From contig NZ_CP139971.1 in the NCBI RefSeq assembly GCF_034424545.1, forward strand, positions 1,178,001 to 1,242,000: a stretch of 64,000 bases of DNA, written 5' to 3'. Shown here piece after piece: positions 37,907-60,240 of the stretch. This DNA is from Trinickia caryophylli (GTDB lineage: Bacteria; Pseudomonadota; Gammaproteobacteria; Burkholderiales; Burkholderiaceae). The notes beneath the pieces are model-generated. The model made no database searches, was not told the origin of the DNA, and saw nothing but the letters and a program-made list of their open reading frames with translations. Made by a program: the position numbers and the translations under genes. Each line of letters begins with the position of its first letter. Positions within the stretch are counted from its first letter, which is position 1.

Positions 37907-38060
37907 TCGGGTGCGAGGTTTCCATCGGACGGAACTGACACCGATCATGTGTAAGCGCGCGATCTAGCACACCGAGCTCATAGGGGTGCACGGAGGTTGA
38001 CGTGCCAGGCGGCGGCGCATCGATCGGCAAGGCGCTTCGAATGCATCGACCAGATCAAGC

Positions 38061-39638: not shown

Positions 39639-39727
39639 GCTCCCAGGATAGTCGAATGCCGCGCGCTACAGGTTTACGGAGATTTGTAACAGTCATTCGC
39701 GCGCGTTGCTGCCCGGCAAACCGGTCA

Positions 39728-40081: not shown

Positions 40082-40142
40082 CAGCGCCGTCCCAGTGCCG
40101 CGATCATGGCGCTCACGAGCGCGGCGTCGCGTTCCGAGCATT
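40081..40142 (-). pseudogene. 3' end of IS66 tnpA
   Basis: Only 'SERDAALVSAMIAALGRR' and its stop remain, matching the end of the complete TnpA encoded at 56191-56670 ('DAPLLSAMIETLGR'). Upstream the reading frame crosses into vanillin dehydrogenase sequence at 40143. Confidence 0.75.
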
Positions 40143-40534: not shown

Positions 40535-41362
40535 TTAGCGCTTATAAGCCTGAAGGCCGGGTTTAATCGCCTTGTCGTCGAGAAATTGCTTGAGCCCCTG
40601 CTCGCGGCCGCCTTCGGTATCGCGATGGTTCGCTTGATCGAGCTTCGCGTAGAGATAGTCTTCGTTCTGTTCCCACGTAAGCTCGCGACAGCGCTTGAAG
40701 CCGTGCTTTGCATTTCGCAGCACTACTGGGTTCTTATCGAGCAGCTTCGCCGCGAACGCAACAGTCTCTTCGCGCAACTGCGCAAGCGGAACACTCTTGT
40801 TGACAAGCCCCATTTTGGCCGCTTGCTGACCTGTGAACGTATCGCCGGTCATGATGTAGTACAGCGCCTCACGATGTCCGACCGTGTCGGCCATCGCCTT
40901 GCTCACCAGATTTCCAGGCGGAATGCCCCAGTTGATCTCCGAAAGCCCGAACACTGCTTCGTCCGCCGCGATCGCGAGGTCGCACGCGACAAGTGGCGAA
41001 AATCCGCCACCGAAGCACCACCCGTTGACCATCGCAATCGTCGGCTTCGAATACATCCGCAGCAGTTGCCATTGCCAGCGGCTCGCGTCGCGTCGAATGC
41101 GCTCTTGCAGCACGTCGGGGCCTGTGTCGACTTCGCGGAAATACTCTTTGAGGTCCATTCCAGCTGTCCATGCCGACCCTTCGCCGGTCAACACCAGTAC
41201 CTGCGCATCCGCGTCGAGTTCGACTGTCTCCAACACATCGATCATTTCCTTGTTAAGTGTCGGGCTCATCGCGTTGCGTTTCTCGGGGCGATTCAACGTC
41301 ACCCAGGCGATGCCGCCATCAACCACAACCTTGACTGTTTTCCAGCGACCTTCATAGCTCAT
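40535..41362 (-). CDS. ech: Hydroxycinnamoyl-CoA hydratase-lyase (feruloyl-CoA to vanillin)
   Basis: 275 residues from the ATG at 41362 (GGAG seven bases upstream). A crotonase that hydrates feruloyl-, caffeoyl- or p-coumaroyl-CoA and cleaves off acetyl-CoA to give vanillin or the matching aldehyde. Very close to the Pseudomonas enzyme: 'RPEKRNAMSPTLNKEMIDVLE', 'AWTAGMDLKEYFREVD', 'NGWCFGGGFSPLVACDLAI' and 'RELTWEQNEDYLYAKLDQ'. Catalytic Glu142 ('FGLSEINWGIPPGN') and Ser122 correspond to Glu143 and Ser123 of the pseudomonad protein. Its natural partner vdh follows but is truncated. A MarR gene is divergent. The CoA ligase is not in the window. Confidence 0.93.
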   Translation of the reverse strand: MSYEGRWKTVKVVVDGGIAWVTLNRPEKRNAMSPTLNKEMIDVLETVELDADAQVLVLTGEGSAWTAGMDLKEYFREVDTGPDVLQERIRRDASRWQWQLLRMYSKPTIAMVNGWCFGGGFSPLVACDLAIAADEAVFGLSEINWGIPPGNLVSKAMADTVGHREALYYIMTGDTFTGQQAAKMGLVNKSVPLAQLREETVAFAAKLLDKNPVVLRNAKHGFKRCRELTWEQNEDYLYAKLDQANHRDTEGGREQGLKQFLDDKAIKPGLQAYKR

Positions 41363-41411
41363 CTCATTTCTCCGTAAACCCGTCCGCACTTGCGGCTTAT
41401 CATCAATTTAC

Positions 41412-41428: not shown

Positions 41429-41481
41429 TGTAAAGTGGTTTACGATGGCGTTCGTACAAGCCCTCACGTCGTGTGTCGACT

Positions 41482-41991
41482 ATGACTAAAAAATCCTCCG
41501 CCGGCGCCTCGGTCGCCCTTGCTAAAACGGCGCCCCTCGCGCGTACCGCTCGCTCGTCGCAGCGCAGAGCGCCGCGCATGCGGATCAGTTACCTGATCGG
41601 GCAGCTCGATCGCGTGATTTCGCGGCGCCTGACCGAGGCGCCCGCGCGTCATCGGCTCACGTTGCCTCAATACACCGCGCTCTCGGTGTTGCGGGCGAGT
41701 GGTCGCTCTTCGAACGCGCAGATCGTGGAGCGCTCGTTCATTACTCCGCAGTCGGCCAATGAGGTGCTGAAGACGATGGAAGCGCAAGGCTGGGTGACGC
41801 GCGAAGCCGATCCGATGAATCGCCGCGTGGTGCTGCTGTCGCTTACCAGGTCCGGGGAAGCCTTGTTGCTTGCCTGCGACGAGGCCTCGAATCACGTCGA
41901 GACAGCCATGCTCGACGGCCTGGGCGACGACGCCGAGCCTGCGCTTCAGTCGTTATTACACGCGTGCGTGCGCAACCTGCGCGCGTTTTGA
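41482..41991 (+). CDS. MarR-family regulator of hydroxycinnamate catabolism
   Basis: 169 residues from the ATG at 41482; a GTG three codons upstream is possible. Winged helix: 'LPQYTALSVLRASGRSSNAQIVERSFITPQSANEVLKTMEAQGWVTREADPMNRRVVLLSLT'. An Arg/Ala-rich N-terminal extension of about 30 residues precedes it. Divergent from ech with a palindromic operator in between, so it probably represses ech-vdh until a CoA-thioester inducer appears. Confidence 0.88.
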   Translation: MTKKSSAGASVALAKTAPLARTARSSQRRAPRMRISYLIGQLDRVISRRLTEAPARHRLTLPQYTALSVLRASGRSSNAQIVERSFITPQSANEVLKTMEAQGWVTREADPMNRRVVLLSLTRSGEALLLACDEASNHVETAMLDGLGDDAEPALQSLLHACVRNLRAF

Positions 41992-42102: not shown

Positions 42103-42678
42103 TCATTGCGGATCATTGGCTATTGCATTCGAATAACCGGAGACGAACGTTTTCGAAGTACTGGTCTTCTGATCGAATACATGTCGTGAAATGCGGCCGA
42201 TGTTTCCGCCATAGACGTGCACGCTGATCGAGACCTGGTCGCGATAGACGTTTGCCACACGATGTATGTCGCCGATCACCGGAGAGACCTCGCTCACTTT
42301 GCCCGGATACAGCGTCGACTCTCCAAGGAGGCACATAGGCCACCCCTCCTCACGGCACTCGTAGCGCTCTTCTCGCTCGGCACCTCGTAGCATGCCGATA
42401 AGTCCCCACACCGTATGGTCGTGTAATGGCGTGCTTTGCCCTGGCCCCCACACGAAACTCACCACGGAAAAGCGTTCGAGAGGGTCGGCGTGCAACAGGT
42501 ATTGGCGGTAATAGTGACGATCAGGTTGCGCAAAAGTTTCGGGCAACCAGTCATCCTGTGTCACCAACGCTTCCAGTAGTCGACGACCACCAAAGCGCAG
42601 CGATGCCTCATTTCCGCCACTTTCCACGAGCCGGGTCATGGCTTCGACGAAATTCTCGAAGCGCGCGAAGTTTTTCAT
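42103..42678 (-). CDS. Thiol dioxygenase (cysteine / 3-mercaptopropionate dioxygenase family)
   Basis: 191 residues, CDO_I cupin fold. Iron ligands: His86 and His88 in 'PLHDHTVWGLIGMLRG' and His139 in 'GDIHRVAN'. The conserved Ser-x-His-x-Tyr network is Ser152-His154-Tyr156 ('ISVHVYGG'). The position that forms the Cys-Tyr crosslink in mammalian CDO is Gly, as in bacterial mercaptopropionate-type enzymes. It oxidises a thiol to a sulfinic acid with O2. It lies 61 bases after an enoyl-CoA hydratase gene and a CoA-transferase in the same direction, a context favouring an organic thiol acid rather than cysteine itself. Confidence 0.85.
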   Translation of the reverse strand: MKNFARFENFVEAMTRLVESGGNEASLRFGGRRLLEALVTQDDWLPETFAQPDRHYYRQYLLHADPLERFSVVSFVWGPGQSTPLHDHTVWGLIGMLRGAEREERYECREEGWPMCLLGESTLYPGKVSEVSPVIGDIHRVANVYRDQVSISVHVYGGNIGRISRHVFDQKTSTSKTFVSGYSNAIANDPQ

Positions 42679-42739
42679 GTTGAATCGTTCTCCATGAAAT
42701 GGGATGGCAGCACCGGCGCCCAGCCGTCTCTTCGCACAT

Positions 42740-43486
42740 TCAGTGAGAAGGCGGGTTTTTGAACGCTCGCGAATGTTGATAGGAGAGAAGCCGTTCCTTT
42801 AAACCCGGACGGGCGGCGGATCGCACGAGGTCGGTTAGATCCGCTTCGAATCCCGCAGACGTCAACACGCGATAAAGATCTGCGCGTGCGACTTCGTCGA
42901 GGACAGTGGTCTTTTCACGGACGTTTTCTATCACGTCGTCCCATTCGTAGAGAGCACATAGTTTGTGTGCGACGCCGAGTCTATGCGCCTCCTCTGCTCC
43001 GAACGCGCGGGTCTCCTCCAGGATGTGCCGCGCTCTCTCGGTGCCGACGACCGCGGCGAATCGTCGCGTGCCAAGCACAATGCCGAACCTTAGACCGGGC
43101 ATCCGAAATACGGTATCGGGTGCTGCAATGCGATGACGGCAAACCGCGAAAAGATCAACCCCTGCGCCGAACACTTTGCCGTGCGCAAGTCCCATTGTCT
43201 GCGCGGAAGACTTTGCAATCGTCTGCAACAGCATCTCGATCCGAATGAATCGCAGCGTCAGATCGCCATCGCTTTGCGCATCCAGTCCGGTCATATCGAA
43301 CCCCGCGCAGAAGCTCTTGCCCTCGCCGCGAAATATCAGCAGCCTGGCTCCGCTTGCATTGGCCTGATCGACAGAATCCAGCAGCCTGTCGACAAGTTCC
43401 ACGTTCAATGAATTGAGTTTCTCAGGACGGTTGAGCGTGAACCTCCAGACGCCGTCGCGCGTCTCGACTTTCAGCACATCGTTCAC
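42740..43486 (-). CDS. Enoyl-CoA hydratase/isomerase family protein (operon A)
   Basis: 248 residues from a GTG at 43486, with AGGAGG seven bases upstream and a four-base GTGA overlap with the CoA-transferase gene. Crotonase blocks: 'WRFTLNRPEKLNSLNVELVDRLL', 'GKSFCAGFDMTGLD' (oxyanion strand) and 'AHGKVFGAGVDLFAVCRHRIAA'. The usual catalytic glutamates near 'RMPGLRFGIVLGTRR' are not evident, so it may be an isomerase, a thioesterase-like lyase or act on an unusual CoA ester. Located between CoA-transferase and thiol dioxygenase. Confidence 0.85.
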   Translation of the reverse strand: MNDVLKVETRDGVWRFTLNRPEKLNSLNVELVDRLLDSVDQANASGARLLIFRGEGKSFCAGFDMTGLDAQSDGDLTLRFIRIEMLLQTIAKSSAQTMGLAHGKVFGAGVDLFAVCRHRIAAPDTVFRMPGLRFGIVLGTRRFAAVVGTERARHILEETRAFGAEEAHRLGVAHKLCALYEWDDVIENVREKTTVLDEVARADLYRVLTSAGFEADLTDLVRSAARPGLKERLLSYQHSRAFKNPPSH

Positions 43487-44655
43487 CGTTGAGCCTCCTG
43501 TTCCGCCGTTGCTCGCAGCGGATCGAGTACTTCGGCGTTGTGCTCGCCCAAAGCCGGCGGCCGCAAACGGATCGGCAAACTGTGGGCATCGATCTGCACG
43601 GGCGAGCCGAAGGTTTTCGTCCTGATTCCGTTCGGCAGTTCGATGGGCTGCACCCAAGCCATATGCTCCACCTGAGGATCGGCCAGGACCTGTGAGAACG
43701 AATTGATCGGGGCGCAAGGCACGCGTGCCGCGCGGAATCGTTCGAGCCATTCGGACGTATTCCCGTTGGCAAACTCCGCCTCCAGGATCTGCAAAAGCGC
43801 ATCCTGGTGCTGGGCCCGACTGCCAGGCGACATGAATCGTTTGTCCGTTAGCAGATCGCTTCTGCCCAATACGTCGCAGACTGAACGCCACAGCGAATTG
43901 TTGCCGGCCGCCATGCCGAAATAGCCGTCCTTGCAGCGAAATACGCGGTAAGGCGCATTGCGCGGATGAGCGGACCCCAACGGCTTGGGATCCCGCCCGC
44001 TGCCGAAAAACTCGGACGTCTGCAAAGCGGCGATCCCTAACGTAGCGCCCAGCATGGGGACGCCGACGTGACAGCCGATTCCGTTGATTGCTGCCGAACG
44101 AAGAGCAGCGAGCACGGTGAATGCCCCATACAGACCTGCAGAAAAATCGGCCAATGGAACCCCACATTTGACTGGCGCGCCACCGGCCTCTCCCGTGACG
44201 CTCATGATCCCACTCATGGCTTGAATGGTCAGATCGAACCCGCCCTCTCCGGCGCGCGGCCCCGACTGCCCGTACGCCGAGATCGAGCAGTACACCAGCT
44301 TCGGATTGAGCGCGGAGAGTGCTTCGTAGCCCACACCCAAACGCTCCATGACACCGGGCCGATTATTTTCGATCAGTACATCGGCATCTTGCGCAAGAGC
44401 ACGCAAGAGTTGCAGATCCGCGGGATTCTTCAGGTCGAGCGTTACCGAACGTTTGTTGCGATTGAGCGCGGCGAAATTCTCACTGTAGCCTCCGGAAAGA
44501 GGTGGCCAACTGCGTAGCGTGTCACCTCCTTCCGGATTTTCCACTTTGATCACGTCGGCACCCATATCGGCCAGCAACATGGCACAGTACGGCCCCGCGG
44601 CGACGTTGCATACCTCGATCACCCGGATGCCGCTCAAGGGTAGCGGATTAGTCAT
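43483..44655 (-). CDS. CaiB/BaiF class III CoA-transferase (operon A)
   Basis: 390 residues. 'GIRVIEVCNVAAGPYCAMLLADMGADVIKVENPEGGDTLR' is the family start and the catalytic Asp141 is in 'GGFDLTIQAMSG'. Further blocks: 'CSISAYGQSGP', 'FGMAAGNNSLWRSVCDVLGR', 'ARVPCAPINSFSQVLADPQV'. It moves CoA from a donor thioester to a carboxylic acid, probably activating the substrate taken up by the porin and MFS transporter encoded upstream. Coupled to the following hydratase by a four-base overlap. Confidence 0.9.
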   Translation of the reverse strand: MTNPLPLSGIRVIEVCNVAAGPYCAMLLADMGADVIKVENPEGGDTLRSWPPLSGGYSENFAALNRNKRSVTLDLKNPADLQLLRALAQDADVLIENNRPGVMERLGVGYEALSALNPKLVYCSISAYGQSGPRAGEGGFDLTIQAMSGIMSVTGEAGGAPVKCGVPLADFSAGLYGAFTVLAALRSAAINGIGCHVGVPMLGATLGIAALQTSEFFGSGRDPKPLGSAHPRNAPYRVFRCKDGYFGMAAGNNSLWRSVCDVLGRSDLLTDKRFMSPGSRAQHQDALLQILEAEFANGNTSEWLERFRAARVPCAPINSFSQVLADPQVEHMAWVQPIELPNGIRTKTFGSPVQIDAHSLPIRLRPPALGEHNAEVLDPLRATAEQEAQR

Positions 44656-44751
44656 TCAAGCTCCTCTTCGTTTTCCAACGACATCGACCACCCGGCGTCC
44701 CACTCACTATATTGGCTATCGAATTGCCGTTTTACATCCAATCCGTCGACC

Positions 44752-45996
44752 TCAGAATCGATGACGCAATCCTACCGTGAATGCAACCTGATGCGAATTC
44801 GACGAGGGCGCATCGAGTGTGATCTGCGCCGCGTTACCTCGTCCGGCTGCGCTCTCGTAGGCGAGGGCTGCATATACGTCGGTACGTTTTGACAACAGAT
44901 AGTCGTTGCCAAGTCCGAATTGCCACCAGTGGAGTGACATGTCGCCGGCACCCGTTCTCAGGCTCGCGTTGGAAAACTTGCCCATCAAGCCGACAATGTA
45001 ACTTGGCGTTAGATAGTCACTGGCACTTAACTCCAGCGAGTCGATATCGAAGCGTCCATTCGCTGTATTGAAGTCCGGCGTACTGGCGCCAGAGATGCTC
45101 AACTTGCCGATCAGCGTGCGAGAGATGACGGAGCCAAGCTCGATATTGCCGATCCGATAAAGACCGCCGGCGGTAATCACCTGTTCGGTGCCGATCGCCA
45201 GCGCCGCGCTGGATGTCTTGCCCGACAGGTTACTGTCGAGCCGCTTGAACCAGAGCGGAAATGCGCCGGGATAATCGCCGTAGGTTGCACCGTTCGTATT
45301 CGAAGCGGCGTTGGGCCCATCTAGACGCGCATAGCCGATTGCCGCGCGCAAGCCGCCGCGCAGATACTTGATCGCGGCCCCGAATTCGCGGTTATTGGCG
45401 AAACCCAAACCTCCCGCCGAGGCAGCCTGATTACTGAACGCATATTGCACGCTGTAGGTCAACCCGCGATAGTCCGGGCTTTCATAGGTGACCGCATTGT
45501 TAAAGCGCACCGAGCCACCAAGCATGTTCAGATCGAACGGGTCGGTCATCAAGGATGTGCCGAAGCGGATGCCAGCCGTCAGATAGCCGACGTACAGCTC
45601 GAACGGACTGTACTGGCGCCCCAGCATGATCTTGCCCAATGACGTCTGACCGATACCGACATACCCCTGACGGCCAAATAGACGCGAGCCTTGCTGCAAA
45701 GCACCGGAATTGGCAGAGAAGCCGTTTTCGAGCACAAAGAACGCGTTGTAACCACCACCCAGGTCTTCGTTGCCCTTAAAGCCAAATCGGCTCCCAGATA
45801 ATTTGCCAGTCGTCGTTTCATAGTTGCTATGTCCGTTCTGGTTACTCACATACATGAGTCCAGAATCGATGATCCCATACAGGGTGACCGAATTCTCGGC
45901 GCGAGCAGTCGTAGCGAAAAGGGTTAGCACTGCGATTGCGATGGGTATGTTCACGCGGATGAATTTGCGGATTTGCTGCCTGCGAATCTCTTTCAT
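44752..45996 (-). CDS. Outer-membrane porin (operon A)
   Basis: 414 residues. Signal peptide ends 'FATTARA'; the mature chain begins 'ENSVTLYGIIDSGLMYVSNQ'. 'SRFGFKGNEDLGGGYNAFFVLENGF', 'RLFGRQGYVGIGQTSLGKIMLGRQYSPFE' and C-terminal Phe ('VGLRHRF') define the Burkholderiaceae porin family. It lies between the transporter and CoA-transferase genes and probably admits the same substrate. A second porin in the window (8299-9441) is a distant paralogue. Confidence 0.92.
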   Translation of the reverse strand: MKEIRRQQIRKFIRVNIPIAIAVLTLFATTARAENSVTLYGIIDSGLMYVSNQNGHSNYETTTGKLSGSRFGFKGNEDLGGGYNAFFVLENGFSANSGALQQGSRLFGRQGYVGIGQTSLGKIMLGRQYSPFELYVGYLTAGIRFGTSLMTDPFDLNMLGGSVRFNNAVTYESPDYRGLTYSVQYAFSNQAASAGGLGFANNREFGAAIKYLRGGLRAAIGYARLDGPNAASNTNGATYGDYPGAFPLWFKRLDSNLSGKTSSAALAIGTEQVITAGGLYRIGNIELGSVISRTLIGKLSISGASTPDFNTANGRFDIDSLELSASDYLTPSYIVGLMGKFSNASLRTGAGDMSLHWWQFGLGNDYLLSKRTDVYAALAYESAAGRGNAAQITLDAPSSNSHQVAFTVGLRHRF

Positions 45997-46077
45997 ATAT
46001 CAACTCTAAAGTTAATTAGGATTCCCTTATATATGGATAGCATCATGATCGATGCTCGAACGCCTGGCCTAACCAGA

Positions 46078-47409
46078 TCAGGCGTTCGACTTCCTGACAA
46101 GAATGCTCGCGGGAATCAATCCGATGACGACGCACGCTGCCATCACGAGCAGCGCAGCCACCAGGACGAAGGCAGGAGAAAAGCTGCCGGTTGCAGCCTT
46201 GATATGGCCGATCGCAACGGGGGCGAGAAATCCGCCAACCTGTCCACACGCACTCACTAGCGCAAGCCCGCCAGCAGCGGCAGTGCCGGACAGGAACGCC
46301 GTTGGAATCGTGAAAAAGAGCGCAGCGATGCACAGATAACCGATGTTCAGCACGCACAACGCAATCATCATCGCCACGAGACTGTGGCCGGACATCGTCA
46401 GCGCGATGGACGCGCAGGCCGTCAGTATCGCGCTGACTGCCCAGTGCCAGCGTCGCTCGAGTTTCTTGTCCGAGTGATGGCACACGAGCAGCATGCCGAC
46501 CGCACCAATGGTCGAAGGAATCGCGAGCAACAGGCCGATGTTCAGCACGTTCCCGCCTGCCAGATGCCTGATCAACGCTGGCGCCCAGTAGTTGAGCACA
46601 TTGCCCGCCCACGCAACTGGAAAATAAGCAAGTGCGACGATGTAGAGTCGCGGCGACCGGATCGCAGCCGAAAAATGCTTCGTTTTATCGTCGTGTCCTT
46701 TCGCGCTGTGTTCTTCCTGAATGGCGCTCACCACGACTTCCCGTTCTTCCTGCGACAGCCATTCGGCGCTCTCCGGCTTATCGGTGAGCAGAAAGTACAT
46801 GAGCACCCCCACGACGACCGGCAGCATGCCTTCGATCAGGAAGATCCACTGCCAGTCCTTTAAACCGCCCACGCCGTTGAACGTCTGCATGATCCAGCCG
46901 GAAAGCGGGCTCCCGATCATACCCGCCAGCGGCACCGCCAGCGAAAAGAGCGCAATCACCCTGGCCCGCTTTTGTGCCGGATACCAGTACGTGAGTATGA
47001 GCATCGCGCCGGGAAAGAAGCCAGCTTCCGCGACACCCAGTGCGAGCCGGGTGACATAGAACTGCATCGGCGTCTGCACGAACATGGTTGCCGAAGAGGC
47101 GAGCCCCCACAGCACCATGATGCGAGAAATGGTTTTCTTCGCACCCACACGGGTTAGCAGCAGATTGCTCGGCACCTCAAACAGCGTATAGCTGATGAAA
47201 AACAGCCCAACACCGATCCCAAATGCAGCCTCGTCGAGGCCCACGTCGGTTTTCATATGCAGGTAAGCAAACCCCACATTGATACGATCTAAAAACGCCA
47301 GCATGAAACATAAACCCAGCGGAATCAGTATTCGCAGGTTCACCTTCGCGTACGCAGATTTCTCGGCAGATACCGTATCCGCGCCAATGTCGCGTGCGGT
47401 TGGCAACAT
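46078..47409 (-). CDS. MFS transporter, anion:cation symporter (ACS) type
   Basis: 443 residues from the ATG at 47409, preceded by AAGGAGGAG. Twelve predicted helices; 'ILIPLGLCFMLAFLDRINVGFAYLHM' and 'SYTLFEVPSNLLLTRVGAKKTISRIMVLWG' are the ACS-family signature (phthalate, tartrate and glucarate permease relatives). Transports organic anions into the cytoplasm. First gene of operon A, divergent from the LysR gene at 47648. Carboxylate substrates of this family fit a cluster that begins with CoA activation. Confidence 0.92.
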   Translation of the reverse strand: MLPTARDIGADTVSAEKSAYAKVNLRILIPLGLCFMLAFLDRINVGFAYLHMKTDVGLDEAAFGIGVGLFFISYTLFEVPSNLLLTRVGAKKTISRIMVLWGLASSATMFVQTPMQFYVTRLALGVAEAGFFPGAMLILTYWYPAQKRARVIALFSLAVPLAGMIGSPLSGWIMQTFNGVGGLKDWQWIFLIEGMLPVVVGVLMYFLLTDKPESAEWLSQEEREVVVSAIQEEHSAKGHDDKTKHFSAAIRSPRLYIVALAYFPVAWAGNVLNYWAPALIRHLAGGNVLNIGLLLAIPSTIGAVGMLLVCHHSDKKLERRWHWAVSAILTACASIALTMSGHSLVAMMIALCVLNIGYLCIAALFFTIPTAFLSGTAAAGGLALVSACGQVGGFLAPVAIGHIKAATGSFSPAFVLVAALLVMAACVVIGLIPASILVRKSNA

Positions 47410-47647
47410 TCCTGTCTCCTCCTTTTCGATTTCGTTTCTGCGCGGATTCTTGTTGGCGGGTAACGCGCTGTAAAGCACGTCTCTGGAATCTCGCGACCGT
47501 CTCCTTCCGTTTGCGCCCTATTGTTTGTGCATCGAGCGCGTCGGGTGAGGTCCAATGTAGTGCGGCGATCCCTAATATACAATCAAGGAATATCGCGTCA
47601 TTGTTTTGCCCTAGGTTAACAGTGCAGCGATTGAGGGGAAGCAGGCC

Positions 47648-48550
47648 ATGAGTTCTACCAACCTTCGACATCTGCGGGTTTTCGAAGCGGTCGCCCGGTT
47701 AAGCAGTTTCGTCGAAGCATCCAAGGCTTTGCACATGACGCCGGCAGCGGTCAGTCTCGCGATCCGCGATCTGGAAACGAGCCTCGAATTCCGGGTTTTC
47801 GACCGTACCACACGTTATGTGCGTCTCACGGAAGCCGGCAAACAGTATTTCGAACGGGTGGTTCGCGTGCTGACAGAAGTGCGTGCAGCAGAGAGCTGTG
47901 CGTCGTCGCTTAGAAAAGGCTCCTACGAAACCGTCCGCATTGCGACTACGCCAACCGTCATCACTTCGCTACTCGGCGTGGCGTTCGAACGGGCGCCCAC
48001 GTTGTGGCCCAACGTCAGGATCAACTGCATCGAGGTGATGTCGCATCAGTTGCCGGAGGTCGTAGACGCGGGCATCGCCGATATCGCCATCGGCGTGCGT
48101 TTGCCCAATAACGAGAGCACGGAGAGCCAGCTTCTCTTCGCGTCCCGATGGACGGCGCTGATCCGGCGAGACAACAAGCTCGCGCGCAAGCATCCGCTGA
48201 CCTGGCGGGAGGTGGTCGCGGAAACAGTCGTGGTGACGAATCAATCGTCGCGCCTCGCGATCCAGAAAGCCTTACCCGCGGACGTCACGATCGAACTGGC
48301 TCACGAGGTCAGCACCGCCATGTCGGCCATAGCCTATGCGGCCAGCGGCCAGGGCATAGCGATCGTGCCGGGCTATATGCGGCAGCTCGCGAAGGCACAC
48401 AAACTGGTTGCGGTGCCGATCGTCGAGCCCGAAGTGTTGCATATGCTTGAAATCGCCAATGCGCGGCGGCCAAAGCCTGAGCCTCACGTGCTGCGAATCC
48501 GCGATTTTCTGCTCAGCGAGGTTCCGTCTGTCTATCGGAAGCTGGTGTAG
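47648..48550 (+). CDS. LysR-family regulator of the catabolic island
   Basis: 300 residues. HTH 'LSSFVEASKALHMTPAAVSLAIRDLETSLEFRVFDRTTRYVRLT'; effector domain with 'ETVRIATTPTVITSLLGVAFERAPTLWPNVRINCIEVMS'. Divergent from operon A (238-base gap) and convergent with operon B, which places it between the two and makes it the best candidate regulator of at least operon A. The ligand would be the substrate or an intermediate. Confidence 0.88.
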   Translation: MSSTNLRHLRVFEAVARLSSFVEASKALHMTPAAVSLAIRDLETSLEFRVFDRTTRYVRLTEAGKQYFERVVRVLTEVRAAESCASSLRKGSYETVRIATTPTVITSLLGVAFERAPTLWPNVRINCIEVMSHQLPEVVDAGIADIAIGVRLPNNESTESQLLFASRWTALIRRDNKLARKHPLTWREVVAETVVVTNQSSRLAIQKALPADVTIELAHEVSTAMSAIAYAASGQGIAIVPGYMRQLAKAHKLVAVPIVEPEVLHMLEIANARRPKPEPHVLRIRDFLLSEVPSVYRKLV

Positions 48551-48569
48551 GCGGAAGCAGGGTTCCGCC
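48550..48569. terminator. Terminator hairpin between convergent LysR and operon B
   Basis: GGCGGAA-GCAGGG-TTCCGCC, perfect 7-bp stem with a 6-base loop, begins on the last base of the LysR stop codon and ends nine bases before the stop of the metallo-hydrolase gene. Confidence 0.6.
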
Positions 48570-48577
48570 GGAACACA

Positions 48578-49513
48578 TCAGATCTGGTTAAGCGGCACCT
48601 TCAGGTAGCGCACGCCATTGCGTTCAGCTGCTGGAAGGCGTCCGCCGTGCATGTTGACCTGCACGGCGGAAAAAAGCATTCGCGGCATCGCGAGCGTTCG
48701 ATCGCGGCTTTCGCGCATGGCCACGAACGCATCTTCGTCGATCCCATCGCGCACGTGGATGTTCTGGCGTTTTTGCGCGCCTACAGTGGTTTCCCACGCA
48801 TAGGCGGTGCGTTCGGCCGGCAAATAATCGTGGCAAAGATAAAGCCGCGTAGGATCGGGAAGCGAGAGCAGACGGCGAATCGAACGATAAAGTTTGCGTG
48901 CGTCGCCGCCCGGGAAATCGCAGCGCGCCGTGCCGTAGTCGGGCATGAAGAGCGTGTCGCCCGGAAACACCGCGTCGCCAATCACGTAGGCGACGCATGC
49001 AGGGGTATGCCCCGGCACGTGAAGCACCGTTGCTTCAAGGCTTCCAATACAGAAGTGATCGCCGTCGGCGAATAGCTGGTCGAACGAAGGACTGGTCGCA
49101 TCGGGATCGGCCTGCACGTTCAGCATGCGTTCGAAATACTGCTGGGTGTCGACGACATGCTCACCGATCGCGGTCGCGCCGCCGCACTGTCGCTGCACGT
49201 AAGGTGCGGCGCAAAGATGATCGGCGTGGATGTGCGTTTCGAGAACCCATCTTACGTCGAGCTTTTCGCTTTCAATGAAGCGTACGAGTTCGTCGGCGGT
49301 CCGGGTCGATGTGCGCCCCGCAGCCAGATCAAAATCGAGCACCGAATCGATGACCGCGCAGGCCTCGCTGTCCGGATCGCCAACCACATAGCTCACCGTG
49401 CAACTGCCAGGTTCGAAAAATGCATGCACATACGGCTGTTGGCCGGGGTTGGTCAAGGCACGCGCAATCTGGCCATCGGCGCGCTCGAGTACCGGGTCGA
49501 AAGTTGAAGTCAT
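48578..49513 (-). CDS. MBL-fold hydrolase, persulfide dioxygenase (ETHE1/Blh)-like
   Basis: 311 residues from the ATG at 49513. Metallo-beta-lactamase signature T-H-I-H-A-D-H at 93-99, further ligands in 'LHVPGHTPACVAYVIGDAVFPGDTLF' (His and Asp) and 'RLYLCHDY'. The 'PGSCTVSYVVGDPDSEACAVIDSVLDFD' beginning and 'ETHIHADHL' are those of ETHE1/Blh proteins, which oxidise glutathione persulfide to sulfite. Last gene of operon B, downstream of a sulfurtransferase gene: the two activities are often linked in sulfide and persulfide removal. Confidence 0.87.
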   Translation of the reverse strand: MTSTFDPVLERADGQIARALTNPGQQPYVHAFFEPGSCTVSYVVGDPDSEACAVIDSVLDFDLAAGRTSTRTADELVRFIESEKLDVRWVLETHIHADHLCAAPYVQRQCGGATAIGEHVVDTQQYFERMLNVQADPDATSPSFDQLFADGDHFCIGSLEATVLHVPGHTPACVAYVIGDAVFPGDTLFMPDYGTARCDFPGGDARKLYRSIRRLLSLPDPTRLYLCHDYLPAERTAYAWETTVGAQKRQNIHVRDGIDEDAFVAMRESRDRTLAMPRMLFSAVQVNMHGGRLPAAERNGVRYLKVPLNQI

Positions 49514-49596
49514 GCTGGGCCCACTATCAAACGAACGTGCGGGACAACCCGCCAGGCGAAGCCGAACGATTTGTCCCGCGCGACAAAGATCACTGA

Positions 49597-49941
49597 TCAG
49601 CCTTGCTGAAAGGCCTTGTGGGCATCCATTGCTTTGAGCGAATAGACATACGCCGCCCCTGCGTTGAGCGCTATTGCCGTAGACAACGCCTCCGCCAGTT
49701 CCGCCTCGGTTACACCAGCCGTGCGGGCCGCTTGGGCATGCGACGCGATGCAACCCTCGCAGCGCGTCGTGACAGCCACGGCGAGTGCGATCAGTTCGCG
49801 CGTTTTTGCATCCAGCGTACCGGTCGCGCCTTGCGACTCGTTCAATCCACGAAAGCCGGCGATCAGCTTGGGGTGGTGCTCCATCAACGCGCCCGAAGCC
49901 GCACGGTTCTTCTTCAACATTTCAAGCCAGTCGTTCAACAT
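49597..49941 (-). CDS. AhpD-like / carboxymuconolactone decarboxylase family protein
   Basis: 114 residues, all helical. The redox/metal motif E-x2-C-x2-C-x3-H-like 'TTRCEGCIASHAQAARTAGVTEAELAEAL' is that of AhpD-type peroxidase-related proteins rather than true lactone decarboxylases. 'SGALDAKTRELIALAVAV'-type helix precedes it. Sits between the sulfurtransferase and the MBL hydrolase and may handle peroxide or a thiol disulfide step. Confidence 0.88.
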   Translation of the reverse strand: MLNDWLEMLKKNRAASGALMEHHPKLIAGFRGLNESQGATGTLDAKTRELIALAVAVTTRCEGCIASHAQAARTAGVTEAELAEALSTAIALNAGAAYVYSLKAMDAHKAFQQG

Positions 49942-49990
49942 CGTCGTTCTCTCCTGAAGGTAAGACCCATTTCCCGGTTGCTGCCGCGGT

Positions 49991-50848
49991 TTATGTGAGT
50001 GCCGGGCCGGTCTCGATGGGACGCAGCGGATCGCTGCACCACTCGCTCCATGAGCCGGGATAGAGACGTGCCGAGGGCATGCCTGCGATTTCCATCGCCA
50101 GAAGGTTGTGGCACGCGGTCACGCCCGACCCGCATTGCGCGACGACCTGGGTACTGTCTCGCCCGTTCAATACATTGACCCACTCGCGAGCCAGCTCCGC
50201 CGAGGATTTAAAGCGGCCGCTTTCGGCGAGGTTGTCGGTAAAAGGACGGTTGACCGCTCCGGGAATGTGGCCTGCGCGCGGGTCGATCGGCTCCGTTTCG
50301 CCGCGGAACCGGGGCGCTCCTCGCCCGTCGACGATCAATGTCTCGCGCGTCGTCAGGTTGCGTGTGACGAATGCGGCGTCCACATGGCGCTCATCGGAGC
50401 CCCGGGCCTCGCCATACTGCACCGGCGACACTTGTGTCATGCCTTTGATGAAAGGACGGTCTGCTTCGGTCCACGCCTGCCAGCCGCCGTCCAGAACGCG
50501 TACGTCACGGTGGCCGATCCAGCGCAACAGCCACCACAGGCGCGCGGCATACGCTCCTCCCGACCGATCGTATGCCACGACCGGCGTCGCCGGATCGATG
50601 CCCACACTGCCGAGCCAGCGCGTAAAGTCCACTACCGACGGAAGCGGATGCCTGCCGTTCAGACCGGTCTTGCGGCCCGACAGATCGCGGTCGAGATGAG
50701 CATGCACCCCGCCGTCGATATGCCCCGCGCGATAGGCATTGACACCCGCCTCGGTTCGTTCGAGATCGTGACTGCAATCGATCACCCGCATGGCCGACAG
50801 TTGGCTGGCCAACGTGTCTGCATCAATCAAGACGTTCGATGCAGGCAT
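49991..50848 (-). CDS. Sulfurtransferase (3-mercaptopyruvate sulfurtransferase / thiosulfate type)
   Basis: 285 residues from the ATG at 50848, which shares one base with the CoA-transferase stop (TGATG). Two rhodanese domains: the first, inactive, has 'VVAYDRSGGAYAARLWWLLRW'; the second has the persulfide-forming Cys239 in 'AQCGSGVTACHNLLA'. The CGSGVT loop is the SseA type that uses 3-mercaptopyruvate. Position in the operon with an ETHE1-like enzyme suggests it handles sulfane sulfur released from the substrate. Confidence 0.9.
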   Translation of the reverse strand: MPASNVLIDADTLASQLSAMRVIDCSHDLERTEAGVNAYRAGHIDGGVHAHLDRDLSGRKTGLNGRHPLPSVVDFTRWLGSVGIDPATPVVAYDRSGGAYAARLWWLLRWIGHRDVRVLDGGWQAWTEADRPFIKGMTQVSPVQYGEARGSDERHVDAAFVTRNLTTRETLIVDGRGAPRFRGETEPIDPRAGHIPGAVNRPFTDNLAESGRFKSSAELAREWVNVLNGRDSTQVVAQCGSGVTACHNLLAMEIAGMPSARLYPGSWSEWCSDPLRPIETGPALT

Positions 50849-52068
50849 CAGATGACTCCCGCGCCACGCAACTCGTCGAGTTGCGACGCCGAAAGACCGA
50901 GCACCGTTTCGAGTACCGGCACGGTATCGGCACCAAGCTGCGGCGGCGCTTTCAATTCGATCGGTGTCAGCGAAAAGCGGAACGGACTGCGCAGCACCGG
51001 AATGACGCCATGCGCCGGATGGTCGACTTCGGCACGCAAGCCGCGATGAATCACCTGTTCGTGATTGAACGCCTCCGCGATCGTATTCACCGGGCCGCAC
51101 GGCACGCCCATGGCGTTCAGCGACGCGGCCAGGTCGTTGCGCTTGAGCTTTGAGGTCACCGCCTGGATTTCGGAATCGAGTTCCACGACATGTTCGAGGC
51201 GCGCTCCGTTGCTTGCGAAGCGGGGATCTTTCATCCACGCCTCGCGGTCGATCGCTTTGCAGAGCTTGGCCCATTGACCGTCATTGCCGATCTGGATCAG
51301 CAACGGGCCGTCAGCACAGGGATAGCAGTTAGACGGCGCGAACAGCCGGCTGCCGTTGCCGATACGCGCTGCCACATGGCCGGTCGACAGGAAGTTCTGC
51401 GACATGTAAGTCGTTGCGGCCACGGCCACGTCGAGCAGCGCGACATCGACGTATTGTCCTTCGCCCGTGCGTTGCTGGTGATACAGCGCGGCGAGAACCG
51501 ACGAAGTTGAGATCATTCCCGTCATCACGTCGACGAGGGGTACCATCGAGCGGACCGGGCCGGCGCCCGGCTGGCCGTCAGGCAGCCCGCACGTGCTCAT
51601 GATGCCGGACACGGCTTGCAGCACGGGGTCATAGCCGGGAAAACGCGACATCGGACCATCTTGGCCGTAGCCCGTCACCGAGCAATAGACGACCCGCGGA
51701 TTGATCTTCCGTACCGTTTCGTAGTCGAGACCGTAGCGCTTCAGATCGCCGACCTTGAAGTTTTCGATGAACACGTCGCACTGCGCGGCCAGATCCAGAA
51801 CGACCTTCTGGCCGGCTTCTTTGGTGAAATCAATCGTCAATGAGCGCTTGCCGCGATTCACGCTAAAAAACGCGGGCGTGTCGTTGGTGGTTTCGCCGTC
51901 GAGATTCTTCAGAAAGGGGGGGGACTGGCGCATTTCGTCGCCCACGCCGGGACGTTCGATCTTGAACACCTGCGCCCCCATGTCGGCGAGCGCCTGGGTG
52001 CACCATGGACCAGCCAGCACGCGTGTCAGGTCGAGTACTTTGACACCCGAGAGAATTTTGTCGTTCAT
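50848..52068 (-). CDS. CaiB/BaiF class III CoA-transferase (operon B)
   Basis: 406 residues from the ATG at 52068 (CAGGAAGG eight bases upstream). 'GVKVLDLTRVLAGPWCTQALADMGAQVFKIERPGVGDEMR' and catalytic Asp147 ('FPGYDPVLQAVSG'). 'MGVPCGPVNTIAEAFNHEQV' and 'VPVLRSPFRFS' are typical of succinyl- or acetyl-CoA-dependent members. A second CoA-transferase in the island, only distantly like the one in operon A, so the two may act on different intermediates. Confidence 0.9.
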   Translation of the reverse strand: MNDKILSGVKVLDLTRVLAGPWCTQALADMGAQVFKIERPGVGDEMRQSPPFLKNLDGETTNDTPAFFSVNRGKRSLTIDFTKEAGQKVVLDLAAQCDVFIENFKVGDLKRYGLDYETVRKINPRVVYCSVTGYGQDGPMSRFPGYDPVLQAVSGIMSTCGLPDGQPGAGPVRSMVPLVDVMTGMISTSSVLAALYHQQRTGEGQYVDVALLDVAVAATTYMSQNFLSTGHVAARIGNGSRLFAPSNCYPCADGPLLIQIGNDGQWAKLCKAIDREAWMKDPRFASNGARLEHVVELDSEIQAVTSKLKRNDLAASLNAMGVPCGPVNTIAEAFNHEQVIHRGLRAEVDHPAHGVIPVLRSPFRFSLTPIELKAPPQLGADTVPVLETVLGLSASQLDELRGAGVI

Positions 52069-52151
52069 AGTGGAAACCTTCCTGTGATCCGATAGCCCGT
52101 TGGTTGTCGACGCGACGGCCGGGCGCAGCCCGGCAGCGTGCAATGCATCGC

Positions 52152-53552
52152 CTAGAAAATCTTGTCAGGATTGAGAATGCCGTGGGGATCGAGTGCCGTC
52201 TTGATTCGCTGCATCAATTGCACAGCGGCATCGCCAGCCTCGCGCCGTAAAAACGCTTTCTTGTGAAAGCCGATTCCGTGTTCACCCGTGCAGGTTCCGC
52301 CCAGACCAATCGCGAGTTCGACGATCGCTTCGTTCAGCTTTTCCGCCTCTTCCCGCTCGGCTTCGCTGCCCGGGTCGATCACCATCAGCACGTGAAAATT
52401 GCCGTCGCCGATATGACCGAACGTCATGTGCGGGAAGTGCGCTCGCGCCATGATCCGCTCGGCACCATCGATGGATTCGGCCAGTCTGGATCGCGGCACA
52501 CAGGTGTCGGTCGCGATGATCATTGAACCGGCCCGCGAAAGCTGACAGCTGAAATACGCGTGATGGCGCGCATGCCAAAGACGGCTGCGCTCTTCCGGCC
52601 GATCGGCCCATTGGAAGTCTTCGCCGCCGTGCTGCAACGCAATTTCGCGCAGCAATTCGGTTTGCTCCTGCAATGAGCCCGGAGAACCATGAAACTCCAT
52701 AAAGAGCGTCGGCCGCTCGCGCAACGCGAGCTCGCGCGAATTGGCGTTGATCGCGCGGATCGAATTGGTGCACAGGTACTCGCTGCGCGCGATGGGCAGT
52801 CCCGATTGAATCGCATCGATGACCGTCGTCACCGCGGCATCCGCATCCTCAAAGGTGATGACCGCGGCGGACATCGCCTCAGGCAACGGAAACAGCTTCA
52901 GCGTGACTTCGGTCACGATCCCAAGCGTGCCCTCCGAGCCGACGAACAGACGCGTCAGGTCGTAGCCCGCAGACGATTTCACCGCCGACGTGCCGGTGTG
53001 GACGAGCGTTCCGTCGGCGGTGACCACCTTGAGCGCGAGTACGTTTTCGCGCATCGATCCATAGCGAACGGTATTGGTGCCGGACGCGCGCGTCGCGACC
53101 ATTCCGCCGAGCGTCGCATGCGCACCGGGATCGACCGGAAAGAACAGGCCGTCGCCGCGAAGCACTGCGTTGAGCGCTTCTTTCGTTACACCCGCCTGCA
53201 CGCTAGCCGTGAAATCGCCGGCATTCACGCCGATGATGCGATCCATCCGCGACAGGTCGATACATACGCCGCCTTTCGTGGCGAGCAGATGACCTTCCAG
53301 CGAAGAACCCGCACCAAACGCTATGGCGGGCACACGATGGGCATTGCAGAGCTTCAGGACCTCGCACACTTCATCGGTGGATTCCACGAACACCACAGCA
53401 TCGGGCGGCATGGCCCGAAACGGCGATTCACCCCGGCCGTGCTGTTCCCGCACCACGGCCGCCGTGGACAGACGCTGCCCGAACATGGCACGCAGCGTTT
53501 CGATCAGACTGTCGCTGACGCGCGACAAGGTTTCTGCGCGATGTGCCTGCAT
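52152..53552 (-). CDS. FAD-linked oxidase, D-lactate dehydrogenase / GlcD type
   Basis: 466 residues from the ATG at 53552, one base after the hydratase stop; a GTG at 53561 would touch its own Shine-Dalgarno. FAD_binding_4 domain 'VPAIAFGAGSSLEGHLLATKGGVCIDLSRMDRI', 'VDPGAHATLGGMVATRASGTNTVRYG', 'LFVGSEGTLGIVTEVTLKLFP'. The C-terminal FAD-oxidase_C domain has 'FGHIGDGNFHV' and 'GTCTGEHGIGFHKKAFL'. Oxidises a 2-hydroxy acid, or cleaves a related C-S or C-O compound by alpha-oxidation. Tightly coupled to the hydratase gene before it. Confidence 0.9.
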   Translation of the reverse strand: MQAHRAETLSRVSDSLIETLRAMFGQRLSTAAVVREQHGRGESPFRAMPPDAVVFVESTDEVCEVLKLCNAHRVPAIAFGAGSSLEGHLLATKGGVCIDLSRMDRIIGVNAGDFTASVQAGVTKEALNAVLRGDGLFFPVDPGAHATLGGMVATRASGTNTVRYGSMRENVLALKVVTADGTLVHTGTSAVKSSAGYDLTRLFVGSEGTLGIVTEVTLKLFPLPEAMSAAVITFEDADAAVTTVIDAIQSGLPIARSEYLCTNSIRAINANSRELALRERPTLFMEFHGSPGSLQEQTELLREIALQHGGEDFQWADRPEERSRLWHARHHAYFSCQLSRAGSMIIATDTCVPRSRLAESIDGAERIMARAHFPHMTFGHIGDGNFHVLMVIDPGSEAEREEAEKLNEAIVELAIGLGGTCTGEHGIGFHKKAFLRREAGDAAVQLMQRIKTALDPHGILNPDKIF

Positions 53553-53553
53553 G

Positions 53554-54294
53554 TCAGACACCCTTGAAATCTGGACGGCGCTTTTCGTGGAACGAACGCA
53601 CGCCTTCGATCGCGTCCTCGCTCTTTGTCACGCGTTCGACAAGTGCCGTGGTCCGGTACATCGTCTCCGCCGGGCTGGTGGGCAACGTCGCGGCCACCAG
53701 CGTCTTCAGTTGGGCGAGAACGAGCGGTGCGGACGACGCGAGCGTGCAGGCCATCTCCTGCGCGGCCTCGAATTGCTGACCTGGCAGCGTCAACTGATTG
53801 ACGAAGCCGACATCGAAAGCACGCGCCGCGGAAATCGGACCGCCGAGCAGCATCATTTCCATCGCGAATTTGTGGGGCACGCGTGCGCACAGCGCCGAGA
53901 TCAAGCCTTTCGAGAGGCCGATCTTCGCCTCGGGATAGATGAAACGCGCGTCTTCCGAAGCGACGCACAGATCGCAAAACGCCATGATGGCTACAGCCAT
54001 GCCGACCACCGGTCCTTGCACCGCGGCGATGAGCGGCTTGGTCAATGTCACGCCGACGCCAGGTACGCAACGCCAGAAATGTTCGGGGGGCGCACTCAGG
54101 TCGGCGCCTGCACAAAACGTCGCGCCATTTGCACATAGCAGACCGACGCGTTCATCGCCCGATTCGAGACGCGCCAGCGCGTCGGAAAGCTGATCGCACA
54201 TGGCGGCAGTCAGTGCATTGCGCTTCTCGGGCCGATCGATGGTGATGATCGCGATTCCATCCTGGGCGCGATAGCTGACGCTTCCTTCCTGCAT
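53554..54294 (-). CDS. Enoyl-CoA hydratase/isomerase family protein (operon B)
   Basis: 246 residues from the ATG at 54294, with GGGAG seven bases upstream. Crotonase segments: 'GIAIITIDRPEKRNALTAAMCDQL', 'NGATFCAGADLSAP', 'AAVQGPVVGMAVAIMAFCDLCVASEDARFIYPEAKIGLSKGL'. First gene of operon B. As in many isomerase-type members the second catalytic glutamate is not obvious. A palindrome GTAGC-T-GCTAC at 54314-54324 lies just upstream of its ribosome-binding site. Confidence 0.88.
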   Translation of the reverse strand: MQEGSVSYRAQDGIAIITIDRPEKRNALTAAMCDQLSDALARLESGDERVGLLCANGATFCAGADLSAPPEHFWRCVPGVGVTLTKPLIAAVQGPVVGMAVAIMAFCDLCVASEDARFIYPEAKIGLSKGLISALCARVPHKFAMEMMLLGGPISAARAFDVGFVNQLTLPGQQFEAAQEMACTLASSAPLVLAQLKTLVAATLPTSPAETMYRTTALVERVTKSEDAIEGVRSFHEKRRPDFKGV

Positions 54295-54999: not shown

Positions 55000-55539
55000 G
55001 TGAAATACAGCGAGAAGAAGAAACTGTCGGCGACGAAGGATTACTGCACCGGCCACGCCGGGGTGAAGAGAGTTGCGGCCCGCCACAACGTGGATGTTTC
55101 GTCACTTCGGAAGTGGATAGCGGCATATCAAGCGCACGGCGAGGAAGGTCTACGAACAAGAACTAGCCGCGTGCGGTATAGCGCTGAGTTCAAGGCCGCA
55201 GTTGTGAAGCGGATGCGGAAGGAAGGCCTTTCATTCCGTCAGGTCGCAGCGCTCGCGAACGTTCGCAATTTCAATATCATTGCAGTTTGGGAGCGGCAGT
55301 ATGATGACGGTAGTCTGGCCGCGGGACGTTCGCGGCCTGCAACCTACACCCTCAGAATGCCGAAACCACCGACATCAGAAAACAAGCCGGCAGCGGATGC
55401 AGACCGCAGCCGCGAGGATCTGCTTGCTGAAGTGCAGCAGCTGCGCATGGAGAACGAATATTTAAAAAAGCTCGACGCCTTGGTTCAAGCGAAGACGAAA
55501 GCAGCTCGGCAGAAAAAGCGCAAATCGTACTTGAACTGA
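55000..55539 (+). CDS. IS3-family transposase OrfA (InsJ-like double HTH)
   Basis: 179 residues from a GTG at 55000. Two helix-turn-helix units: 'YCTGHAGVKRVAARHNVDVSSLRKWIAAYQAHGEEGLR' and 'GLSFRQVAALANVRNFNIIAVWERQYDDG', followed by a coiled-coil 'LLAEVQQLRMENEYLKKLDALVQ'. Intact, but its OrfB partner is broken, so it has no enzymatic function of its own. Confidence 0.85.
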   Translation: MKYSEKKKLSATKDYCTGHAGVKRVAARHNVDVSSLRKWIAAYQAHGEEGLRTRTSRVRYSAEFKAAVVKRMRKEGLSFRQVAALANVRNFNIIAVWERQYDDGSLAAGRSRPATYTLRMPKPPTSENKPAADADRSREDLLAEVQQLRMENEYLKKLDALVQAKTKAARQKKRKSYLN

Positions 55540-56135: not shown

Positions 56136-56190
56136 CGTCAACGTGTCCAACATTCCGGGGTCAGTTCATTCGAATCAGTGGACACCTTTC

Positions 56191-57001: not shown

Positions 57002-57034
57002 AACGAGAACCGGCATCGCTGGTCTAATTCAGCG

Positions 57035-60236: not shown

Positions 60237-60240
60237 AGTC

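Follow-up and report, generated by a model that had tools for sequence, protein, structure and literature searches.

The window analysed here, a 64,000-nucleotide stretch of the 6.59-Mb, two-contig genome of Trinickia caryophylli (positions 1178001-1242000), contains an island of twelve genes (42103-54294) organised as two minus-strand operons, designated A and B, with the gene for a LysR regulator between them. We propose that this is a catabolic island for thiol or thioether acids in which crotA, a crotonase gene of operon A paired with the gene for a family III CoA-transferase (CaiB-A), encodes a desulfinase, and in which operon B provides a mercaptolactate/persulfide branch. To this explanation as a whole we assign a probability of about 0.45.

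The specific new proposal is that crotA (42740-43486, minus strand; ECH_1) encodes a crotonase-type desulfinase acting on sulfino-acyl-CoA, an assignment from sequence that we put forward tentatively and at somewhat less than even odds. The main reason for proposing crotA as a replacement desulfinase is that a gene for a desulfinase of the acyl-CoA-dehydrogenase (Acd) type is absent from the window and from a further locus, L049, whilst crotA is present. CrotA belongs to an uncharacterised crotonase subfamily resembling the solved structure 3isa. In alignment both hydratase glutamates are replaced (Asp111 at the Glu1 position and Gly131 at Glu2), so that the residues by which an enoyl-CoA hydratase is recognised are missing. 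The methylmalonyl-CoA decarboxylase ScpB of E. coli is alike in having the crotonase fold and in lacking the second hydratase glutamate but is only 20% identical to crotA, in which the Glu1 and Glu2 positions are Asp and Gly; the likeness of reaction is one of analogy only. Ordinary fatty-acid beta-oxidation was considered as a role and dropped, as the window encodes no acyl-CoA dehydrogenase and the hydratase residues are missing.

In the proposed route a porin and a major facilitator superfamily (MFS) transporter would import a small thiol- or thioether-carboxylic acid, a dioxygenase of the 3-mercaptopropionate dioxygenase (3MDO) type would convert the free thiol acid to a sulfino acid, CaiB-A would transfer CoA to the sulfino acid and crotA would remove sulfite (or SO2) from the resulting sulfino-acyl-CoA to leave an ordinary acyl-CoA. 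CrotA would thereby stand in for Acd, using enolate chemistry comparable to the loss of CO2 brought about by methylmalonyl-CoA decarboxylase. An enolate route would suit an alpha-sulfino acid best, such as sulfinoacetate (from mercaptoacetate). Amongst candidate substrates, the best fit to the proposed chemistry is mercaptoacetate or a mercaptolactate conjugate, and the best fit to the dioxygenase family is 3-mercaptopropionate.

The desulfinases known to act in the 3-sulfinopropionate route are of the acyl-CoA-dehydrogenase type (PMC5373536 and PMC6370202, both cited here and below from parts of their texts), and a second family, if the proposal is true, would be new. The CaiB-A/crotA pair would then serve as a marker for the degradation of thiol acids, and perhaps sulfone acids, in soil genomes, and a function would be suggested for 3isa, a structure that has no assigned role; what becomes of mercapto acids would also be open to direct test. 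More speculatively still, and with the odds against it, crotA may found a class of sulfino-acyl-CoA desulfinases within the crotonase superfamily which, together with a dedicated CaiB protein, forms an exchangeable end module for varied sulfinate-producing enzymes (thiol dioxygenases, Rieske demethylases of methyl sulfones and SfnG-like sulfone monooxygenases). A search of openly licensed papers for genes of mercaptoacetate or thiodiglycol degradation returned nothing usable, and a search of the same kind of literature for crotonases, enoyl-CoA hydratases or Rieske enzymes tied to desulfination, sulfinates or sulfones returned nothing on point beyond PMC6370202 and PMC5373536.

The thiol dioxygenase

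The last gene of operon A (42103-42678, minus strand) encodes a thiol dioxygenase (PF05995, CDO_I) that is, on the basis of its sequence, of the 3MDO type, with a corresponding predicted substrate preference. In phmmer searches the protein scores 188-205 bits against four solved 3MDO-type chains (4qma, 6xb9, 3uss and 4wvz), and alignment with a partial sequence of Av3MDO shows that it retains the three iron-binding histidines, the Ser-His-Tyr triad and the equivalent of Arg168. In 3MDO this arginine binds the substrate carboxylate (PMC8050391, with residue roles also described in PMC10966181; both cited from part of the text). Two other identities were dropped: mercaptosuccinate dioxygenase is matched at 43 bits only, and cysteine dioxygenases at 43 bits at most. 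Elsewhere in the genome CDO_I is matched once more, weakly (36 bits; G000:C2:17615-17935).

The preliminary description of this DNA had proposed a role in organosulfur-acid catabolism. This is supported by the retention of the 3MDO residues and by the presence of CaiB and crotonase relatives adjoining thiol dioxygenases in many genomes, and we consider it likely.

The CaiB-A/crotA pair in other genomes

The CaiB-A gene (43483-44655, minus strand) overlaps crotA by 4 bases. Two sets of loci were used to examine how widely this arrangement recurs. A search of 249 genomes of the same family found crotA in 31 at E<=1e-20 (the window included), of which 25, not counting the window, match at E<=1e-39, and 20 family loci were taken from these matches for reading of the neighbourhood. 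A second set, the named loci, comprises the best 80 of 485 relatives found by a scan of genome contigs; as 32 of the 80 are from Achromobacter the counts contain redundancy, and at some loci the flanking sequence is short.

In the 20 family loci CaiB-A either adjoins crotA or is separated from it by the dioxygenase gene alone, the CaiB frame being in pieces in two of them (L045 and L047). By a half-coverage criterion the two genes lie within 150 bases of each other in 14/20 and within 1.5 kb in 19/20, and a dioxygenase is visible in eight. Amongst the named loci, 73/80 have a CaiB-A relative within 150 bases of crotA and 75/80 have one within 1.5 kb. At least 11 of the 25 family genomes with a strong crotA match (G188 and G195 included) have a thiol dioxygenase gene within 4 kb of crotA, against about 0.04 expected at random if a 6-Mb genome has about one dioxygenase. 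Within 7 kb of crotA, 42/80 named loci have a dioxygenase, 11/80 have a set comprising a Rieske oxygenase and a short-chain fatty acid (SCFA) transporter, none has both and 27/80 have neither.

The pair, with its link to enzymes that make, or possibly make, sulfinates, recurs in the Burkholderiales, Bradyrhizobium and Rhodococcus. On a Paraburkholderia graminis plasmid it is accompanied by genes for a reductase, a Rieske oxygenase, a transporter and a formaldehyde-type dehydrogenase, and a Bradyrhizobium Ash2021 plasmid likewise carries it with a Rieske set. In B. guangxiense the CaiB, dioxygenase and crotonase genes are contiguous, with an acyl-CoA dehydrogenase gene about 9 kb away, and on a Peribacillus plasmid a crotonase that is only 23% identical is found with a dioxygenase, an SsuD-like monooxygenase and a sulfonate transporter. 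The plasmid of Rhodococcus JS3073 encodes an SfnG-like monooxygenase (203 bits, under the 383-bit cut-off), CaiB and crotA in overlapping frames, followed by RibBA and a malonate decarboxylase alpha subunit. SfnG converts dimethyl sulfone to methanesulfinate and formaldehyde. If a Rieske demethylase acted on a methyl sulfone, a sulfinate and formaldehyde could likewise result, which would explain the formaldehyde-type dehydrogenase at Rieske loci. The thiol dioxygenase, Rieske and SfnG-like front ends could thus share a sulfinate product, with the CaiB/crotonase pair as the common next step.

A crotA tree of 100 sequences (10 of 110 candidates were short, broken or missing and were left out) is consistent with such an exchange of front ends. 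Only 21 changes of neighbour class are needed on the tree, compared with a minimum of 40 in 200 label shuffles. Seventeen Rieske loci form a single clade (support 0.986) with no dioxygenase members, whilst another Rieske locus (L055) lies elsewhere, indicating that the front end has been swapped more than once and the pair kept. As the tree was rooted at the midpoint, it gives no direction for these changes.

In 53/80 named loci the neighbourhood also encodes a pair of CoA-transferase-fold proteins related to the glutaconate CoA-transferase family, the beta subunit being nearest to the 5mzw series, which we take to be the AibAB decarboxylase. Such two-subunit proteins, often accompanied by an AMP-forming ligase, lie beside CaiB-A/crotA in these loci and at L041:10335-11895; none is seen in the window.

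These neighbourhoods bear on a different account, in which the acid handled by CaiB-A and crotA contains no sulfur (for example a malonate-, methoxy- or hydroxy-acid), crotA is decarboxylase-like or some other lyase and the dioxygenase has a side role. The 27 loci with neither front end would fit it, as would the CoA-transferase-fold pair with its resemblance to 5mzw and the malonate decarboxylase subunit downstream in Rhodococcus, and a Rieske oxygenase with a formaldehyde-type dehydrogenase is compatible with any demethylation. Yet the close linkage to thiol dioxygenases repeats in several genera as well as in Bradyrhizobium, and in Rhodococcus an SfnG-like enzyme lies beside the pair; we regard a sulfur-free substrate as improbable.

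Two further loci were observed. On a Ciceribacter plasmid (L057:9252-11137) a 58% identical CaiB-A relative lies with genes for a phosphonate transporter, a phosphonate dehydrogenase and a metallo-beta-lactamase (MBL) enzyme, and the CaiB-A subfamily may also serve phosphonate acids. At L048:4883-9929 cytochrome bd oxidase genes separate the dioxygenase gene from CaiB-A/crotA.

The search for an Acd-type desulfinase

There is no acyl-CoA dehydrogenase gene in the window, all 14 of the genome's PF00441 matches lying elsewhere. Ten of the 14 were compared with NCBIfam and none received a desulfinase name, and a PDB comparison of two (one of the isovaleryl-CoA-dehydrogenase type, the other of the short-chain type) found no desulfinase-named chain amongst the 60 of 72 matches listed. 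As a control, eight acyl-CoA dehydrogenases from the window's genome were used as queries against the named and family loci. Matches within 7 kb of crotA were found in 2/80 named loci, in 0/42 of those with a dioxygenase and in 1/20 family loci (L051). At L049 the genes for CaiB-A, the dioxygenase, crotA, TctC and AhpD are consecutive and no acyl-CoA dehydrogenase match is seen. In Advenella sp. S44, two loci out of three dioxygenase matches were read by eye and showed no Acd-like neighbour in the lists of open reading frames.

The main rival to a crotonase-type desulfinase is that the crotonases act before desulfination, as in the 3,3'-thiodipropionate (TDP) pathway of Variovorax paradoxus TBEA6. 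The island would then encode a rearranged route for 3-mercaptopropionate, TDP or 3,3'-dithiodipropionate (DTDP), in which 3-sulfinopropionate (3SP) is made, a CaiB protein activates it, an Acd-type desulfinase is supplied from elsewhere in the genome and the crotonases cleave a thioether-CoA. The 3MDO type of the dioxygenase fits this route, the 14 acyl-CoA dehydrogenase matches outside the window provide candidates, and the TBEA6 cluster also unites mdo, CoA-transferase, crotonase and Fox genes (PMC6370202). Deletion of ech-20 and ech-30 in TBEA6 abolished growth on TDP and left growth on 3SP intact; since these crotonases are dispensable for 3SP, they act earlier in the TDP route, and their products have been proposed as thioether-CoA cleaving enzymes (PMC6370202). 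The absence of acyl-CoA dehydrogenase matches from the window and their scarcity near crotA in other genomes speak against this account, which we consider unlikely, if less so than a sulfur-free substrate.

Operon B

Operon B is proposed to be a second, mercaptolactate/persulfide branch of the same system, and its enzymes look like such a branch. A flavin adenine dinucleotide (FAD)-dependent 2-hydroxy-acid dehydrogenase of the D-lactate dehydrogenase (LDHD) type would convert a 2-hydroxy thio acid, for example 3-mercaptolactate, to the corresponding 2-oxo acid, an SseA-type sulfurtransferase would remove the sulfur as persulfide and an MBL-fold persulfide dioxygenase would oxidise the persulfide to sulfite. 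An AhpD-family protein would provide thiol/disulfide redox activity, and the second CoA-transferase and crotonase (CaiB-B and crotB) a second CoA-dependent step.

The FAD enzyme (52152-53561; PF01565 and PF02913), encoded like the other operon B products on the minus strand, scores 440 bits against the LDHD structure 8jdc and 228 bits against the glycolate oxidase 9qgz, and it is below the cut-off for GlcD (TIGR00387, 352 of 567.9 bits). The sulfurtransferase (49991-50848; PF00581) has the same CGSGVTA active-site loop as E. coli SseA and falls under the NCBIfam equivalog cut-off (128.7 of 250 bits). A further SseA copy is present at G000:C2:1849372, and a family search with this protein was uninformative, with matches at E<=1e-60 in 229/249 genomes. 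The AhpD/CMD-family protein (49597-49941; PF02627, and above the cut-off for TIGR00778) has a CxxC motif that is kept in 8/8 aligned sequences. CaiB-B (50848-52068) and CaiB-A both exceed the PF02515 (CoA_transf_3) cut-off, at 423 and 412 bits respectively, as expected of family III CoA-transferases. CrotB (53554-54294; PF00378, ECH_1) has Ala at Glu1 and keeps Glu2 in the one alignment made, and so lacks the two-glutamate signature of a hydratase.

The MBL enzyme (48578-49513) had been described as ETHE1/Blh-like. The likeness holds for the catalytic half of Blh only: NF040641 is matched at 385 bits over profile positions 139-422 (cut-off 625), so that in comparison with the Blh and ETHE1 persulfide dioxygenases the protein shares the catalytic domain and lacks the sulfurtransferase half of Blh. 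It scores 379 bits against 9g8t, 349 against 4ysk and 67 against ETHE1 (4chl); 4ysk is presumably a characterised persulfide dioxygenase (its file says beta-lactamase domain protein). Two MBL relatives sit with YeeE/YedE, TauE/SafE, redoxin, SQR/DUF442 or cytochrome bd genes, in loci of the sulfur-detoxification type. A Thioclava plasmid operon encodes a hydroxyacid dehydrogenase (annotated mmsB), a rhodanese, an SseA relative (47%), a CMD/AhpD protein and a GntP permease, and thus has three functions in common with operon B, which suggests that a hydroxy thio acid is first oxidised and its sulfur then transferred.

The neighbourhoods of the nearest dioxygenases from elsewhere (60-63%) were also examined, at nine loci. 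In L210 and L213 the dioxygenase gene is opposite an operon for a small hotdog-like protein (called by eye, with no NCBIfam match in L213), a serine/threonine-type transporter (below cut-off), the C-S lyase PatB (above cut-off), AhpD and a CaiB-B-like protein. L208 appears similar by eye, with no AhpD match, and the other six loci have fewer of these genes or none. PatB operons opposite dioxygenases point to thiols freed from cysteine conjugates. In Advenella sp. S44 and L049 a lyase of the PurB/XcbD superfamily takes the place of the PatB-type front end, and several front ends may feed thiol acids into the same chemistry. A stretch of the Advenella sp. S44 genome (L225:4806-9836) groups a probable MmgE/PrpD protein (by eye), a PurB/XcbD-like lyase, AhpD, CaiB-A and the dioxygenase, an arrangement resembling a front end for succinyl thioethers made up of an epimerase and a lyase.

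Layout and setting of the island

All the genes of the preliminary description, with their strands and the two-operon layout around a LysR gene, are present by profile matches. Operon A is transcribed in the order MFS transporter, porin, CaiB-A, crotA and dioxygenase, with gaps of 81, 96, -4 and 61 bases. The MFS transporter (46078-47409, minus strand; PF07690) scores 341 bits with TIGR00893 and 315 bits with HpaX, both under cut-off, and is probably responsible for acid uptake; the Gram-negative porin (44752-45996, minus strand; PF13609, Porin_4, 145 bits) probably mediates uptake across the outer membrane. The LysR gene (47648-48550, plus strand; PF03466 and PF00126) is divergent from operon A. 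Operon B is ordered crotB, FAD enzyme, CaiB-B, SseA, AhpD and MBL enzyme (gaps of -8, 83, -1, 49 and 83). The spacing suggests that each block is a single transcript; scans for promoters and terminators gave results near chance (5 found against 4.9 expected, and 17 against 13.3, sd 3.8).

The island is bordered by IS66 genes on the left (38061-40141) and by IS3-type and IS66 genes on the right (55000-57916). A perfect 54-bp direct repeat at 37951-38004 and 57884-57937 marks its outer edges and may be a mark of insertion. Of the IS66 tnpC genes beside the repeat, the one on the left has its full length and that on the right is shorter. Neither the thiol dioxygenase (E<=1e-20) nor crotB (E<=1e-50) has a match in 10 other genomes sampled from the same genus, and the island thus looks acquired, probably by horizontal transfer. 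A megablast search of the entire island against plasmids gave a single 85-base match and nothing more.

Just outside 42103-54294 lies a third crotonase gene (40535-41389, minus strand) that by eye resembles hydroxycinnamoyl-CoA hydratase-lyase, with a divergent MarR gene (41473-41991, plus strand); the two are next to IS66 and may represent a piece of a ferulate-type pathway. On the other side (57964-63792), again by eye, a sugar-type ABC transporter ATPase gene whose start is apparently missing adjoins an IS66 remnant and is followed by genes for two permeases, a GMC-type oxidoreductase and an SDR protein.

Do operons A and B form one system?

In our reading the two operons would act on one compound; the link between A and B is indirect and no more than suggestive. 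The preliminary description had linked them, and part of this survives: the complete A+B set was found in no second genome, but single operon B genes do occur near operon A-type genes (L050, L108, L123, L134, L208, L210 and L213). In Rhizobacter Root404 a 51% identical GlcD relative is directly upstream of CaiB-A-crotA. Bordetella genomosp. 2 and Achromobacter aestuarii each have dioxygenase, crotB and AhpD relatives in one place, and further Burkholderiaceae loci combine a dioxygenase and AhpD with crotB or CaiB-B relatives. CrotB is found at E<=1e-50 in nine other family genomes, six of which have a strong crotA match where about 0.9 would be expected (hypergeometric P 4e-5, a value that ignores genome size and kinship). 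CrotA and crotB are on one contig, about 2-18 kb apart, in G055, G100 and G189 only. Relatives of crotB and AhpD also occur in other catabolic clusters, and for this reason the co-occurrence is no more than suggestive.

The operons might instead be unrelated catabolic modules joined by insertion sequence (IS) elements. The IS genes and direct repeat around the island are in keeping with this, as are the failure to find both operons together in another genome and the lower GC content at third codon positions (GC3) of the final operon A genes (0.615-0.68, compared with 0.67-0.75 in operon B). It is harder to reconcile with the Rhizobacter, Bordetella, Achromobacter and other Burkholderiaceae loci and with the excess of genomes having both crotA and crotB, and we see it as a real possibility, if one that probably does not hold.

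A number of points weigh against the proposal. CaiB-B has no match at E<=1e-130 in 348 other genomes of the order (the best five candidates being scored in each) and the MBL enzyme none at E<=1e-120 in 248 other family genomes; as CaiB-B, crotB and the MBL enzyme lack close orthologues amongst the relatives sampled, the coupling of the operons depends on scattered cases. An Acd could be amongst the 14 acyl-CoA dehydrogenase matches elsewhere in the genome. At L051, which has a dioxygenase and crotA, a remote acyl-CoA dehydrogenase (32%) is encoded at a distance of about 4 kb, and L056 has one at about 9 kb. The 27 named loci lacking both a dioxygenase and a Rieske set mean that the acids handled by CaiB-A/crotA may belong to a broader class or to another one; where the CoA-transferase-fold pair is present it could itself be the desulfinase, and at the Rieske loci the compound demethylated could just as well be a methoxy acid. 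Finally, Advenella mimigardefordensis DPN7 activates 3SP by SucCD despite having a family III CoA-transferase gene in its cluster (PMC5373536).

Comparison with known systems

The preliminary description knew of no pathway with precisely this set of genes. This has to be revised, as the Advenella DTDP cluster and the Variovorax TDP cluster come close (PMC5373536, PMC6370202). A further comparison is with the mercaptosuccinate cluster, comprising genes for LysR, mercaptosuccinate dioxygenase (Msdo), cystathionine beta-lyase and rhodanese, with sulfinosuccinate reported to break down without CoA (PMC5373536). The window shares with it a thiol dioxygenase, a rhodanese and LysR; its dioxygenase, however, matches 3MDO rather than Msdo.

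The TBEA6 cluster contains acdA, act, a crotonase gene, ech-20, ech-30, fox and mdo (PMC6370202). Compared by gene description, it has in common with the window a dioxygenase, a CoA-transferase, several crotonases and a 2-hydroxy-acid FAD dehydrogenase. It differs in that acdA is absent from the window, whilst rhodanese, sulfurtransferase and AhpD are unmentioned in the main text of PMC6370202.

In DPN7 the order is LysR, family III CoA-transferase, Acd, Mdo, AhpD and two TctC genes, and Acd desulfinates 3-sulfinopropionyl-CoA to propionyl-CoA (PMC5373536). The 3MDO-type dioxygenase, the family III CoA-transferase (at the level of family), AhpD and LysR are common to this cluster and the window. 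In the window, however, Acd is absent and a crotonase gene adjoins that of the CoA-transferase, the MFS transporter and porin replace TctC, and operon B, AhpD apart, is missing from the gene list of PMC5373536. L049 has the same parts as DPN7 in a slightly changed order, with crotA in and Acd out. The gene set of the island has, therefore, a close published counterpart, and the new element that we propose is the crotonase-type desulfinase.

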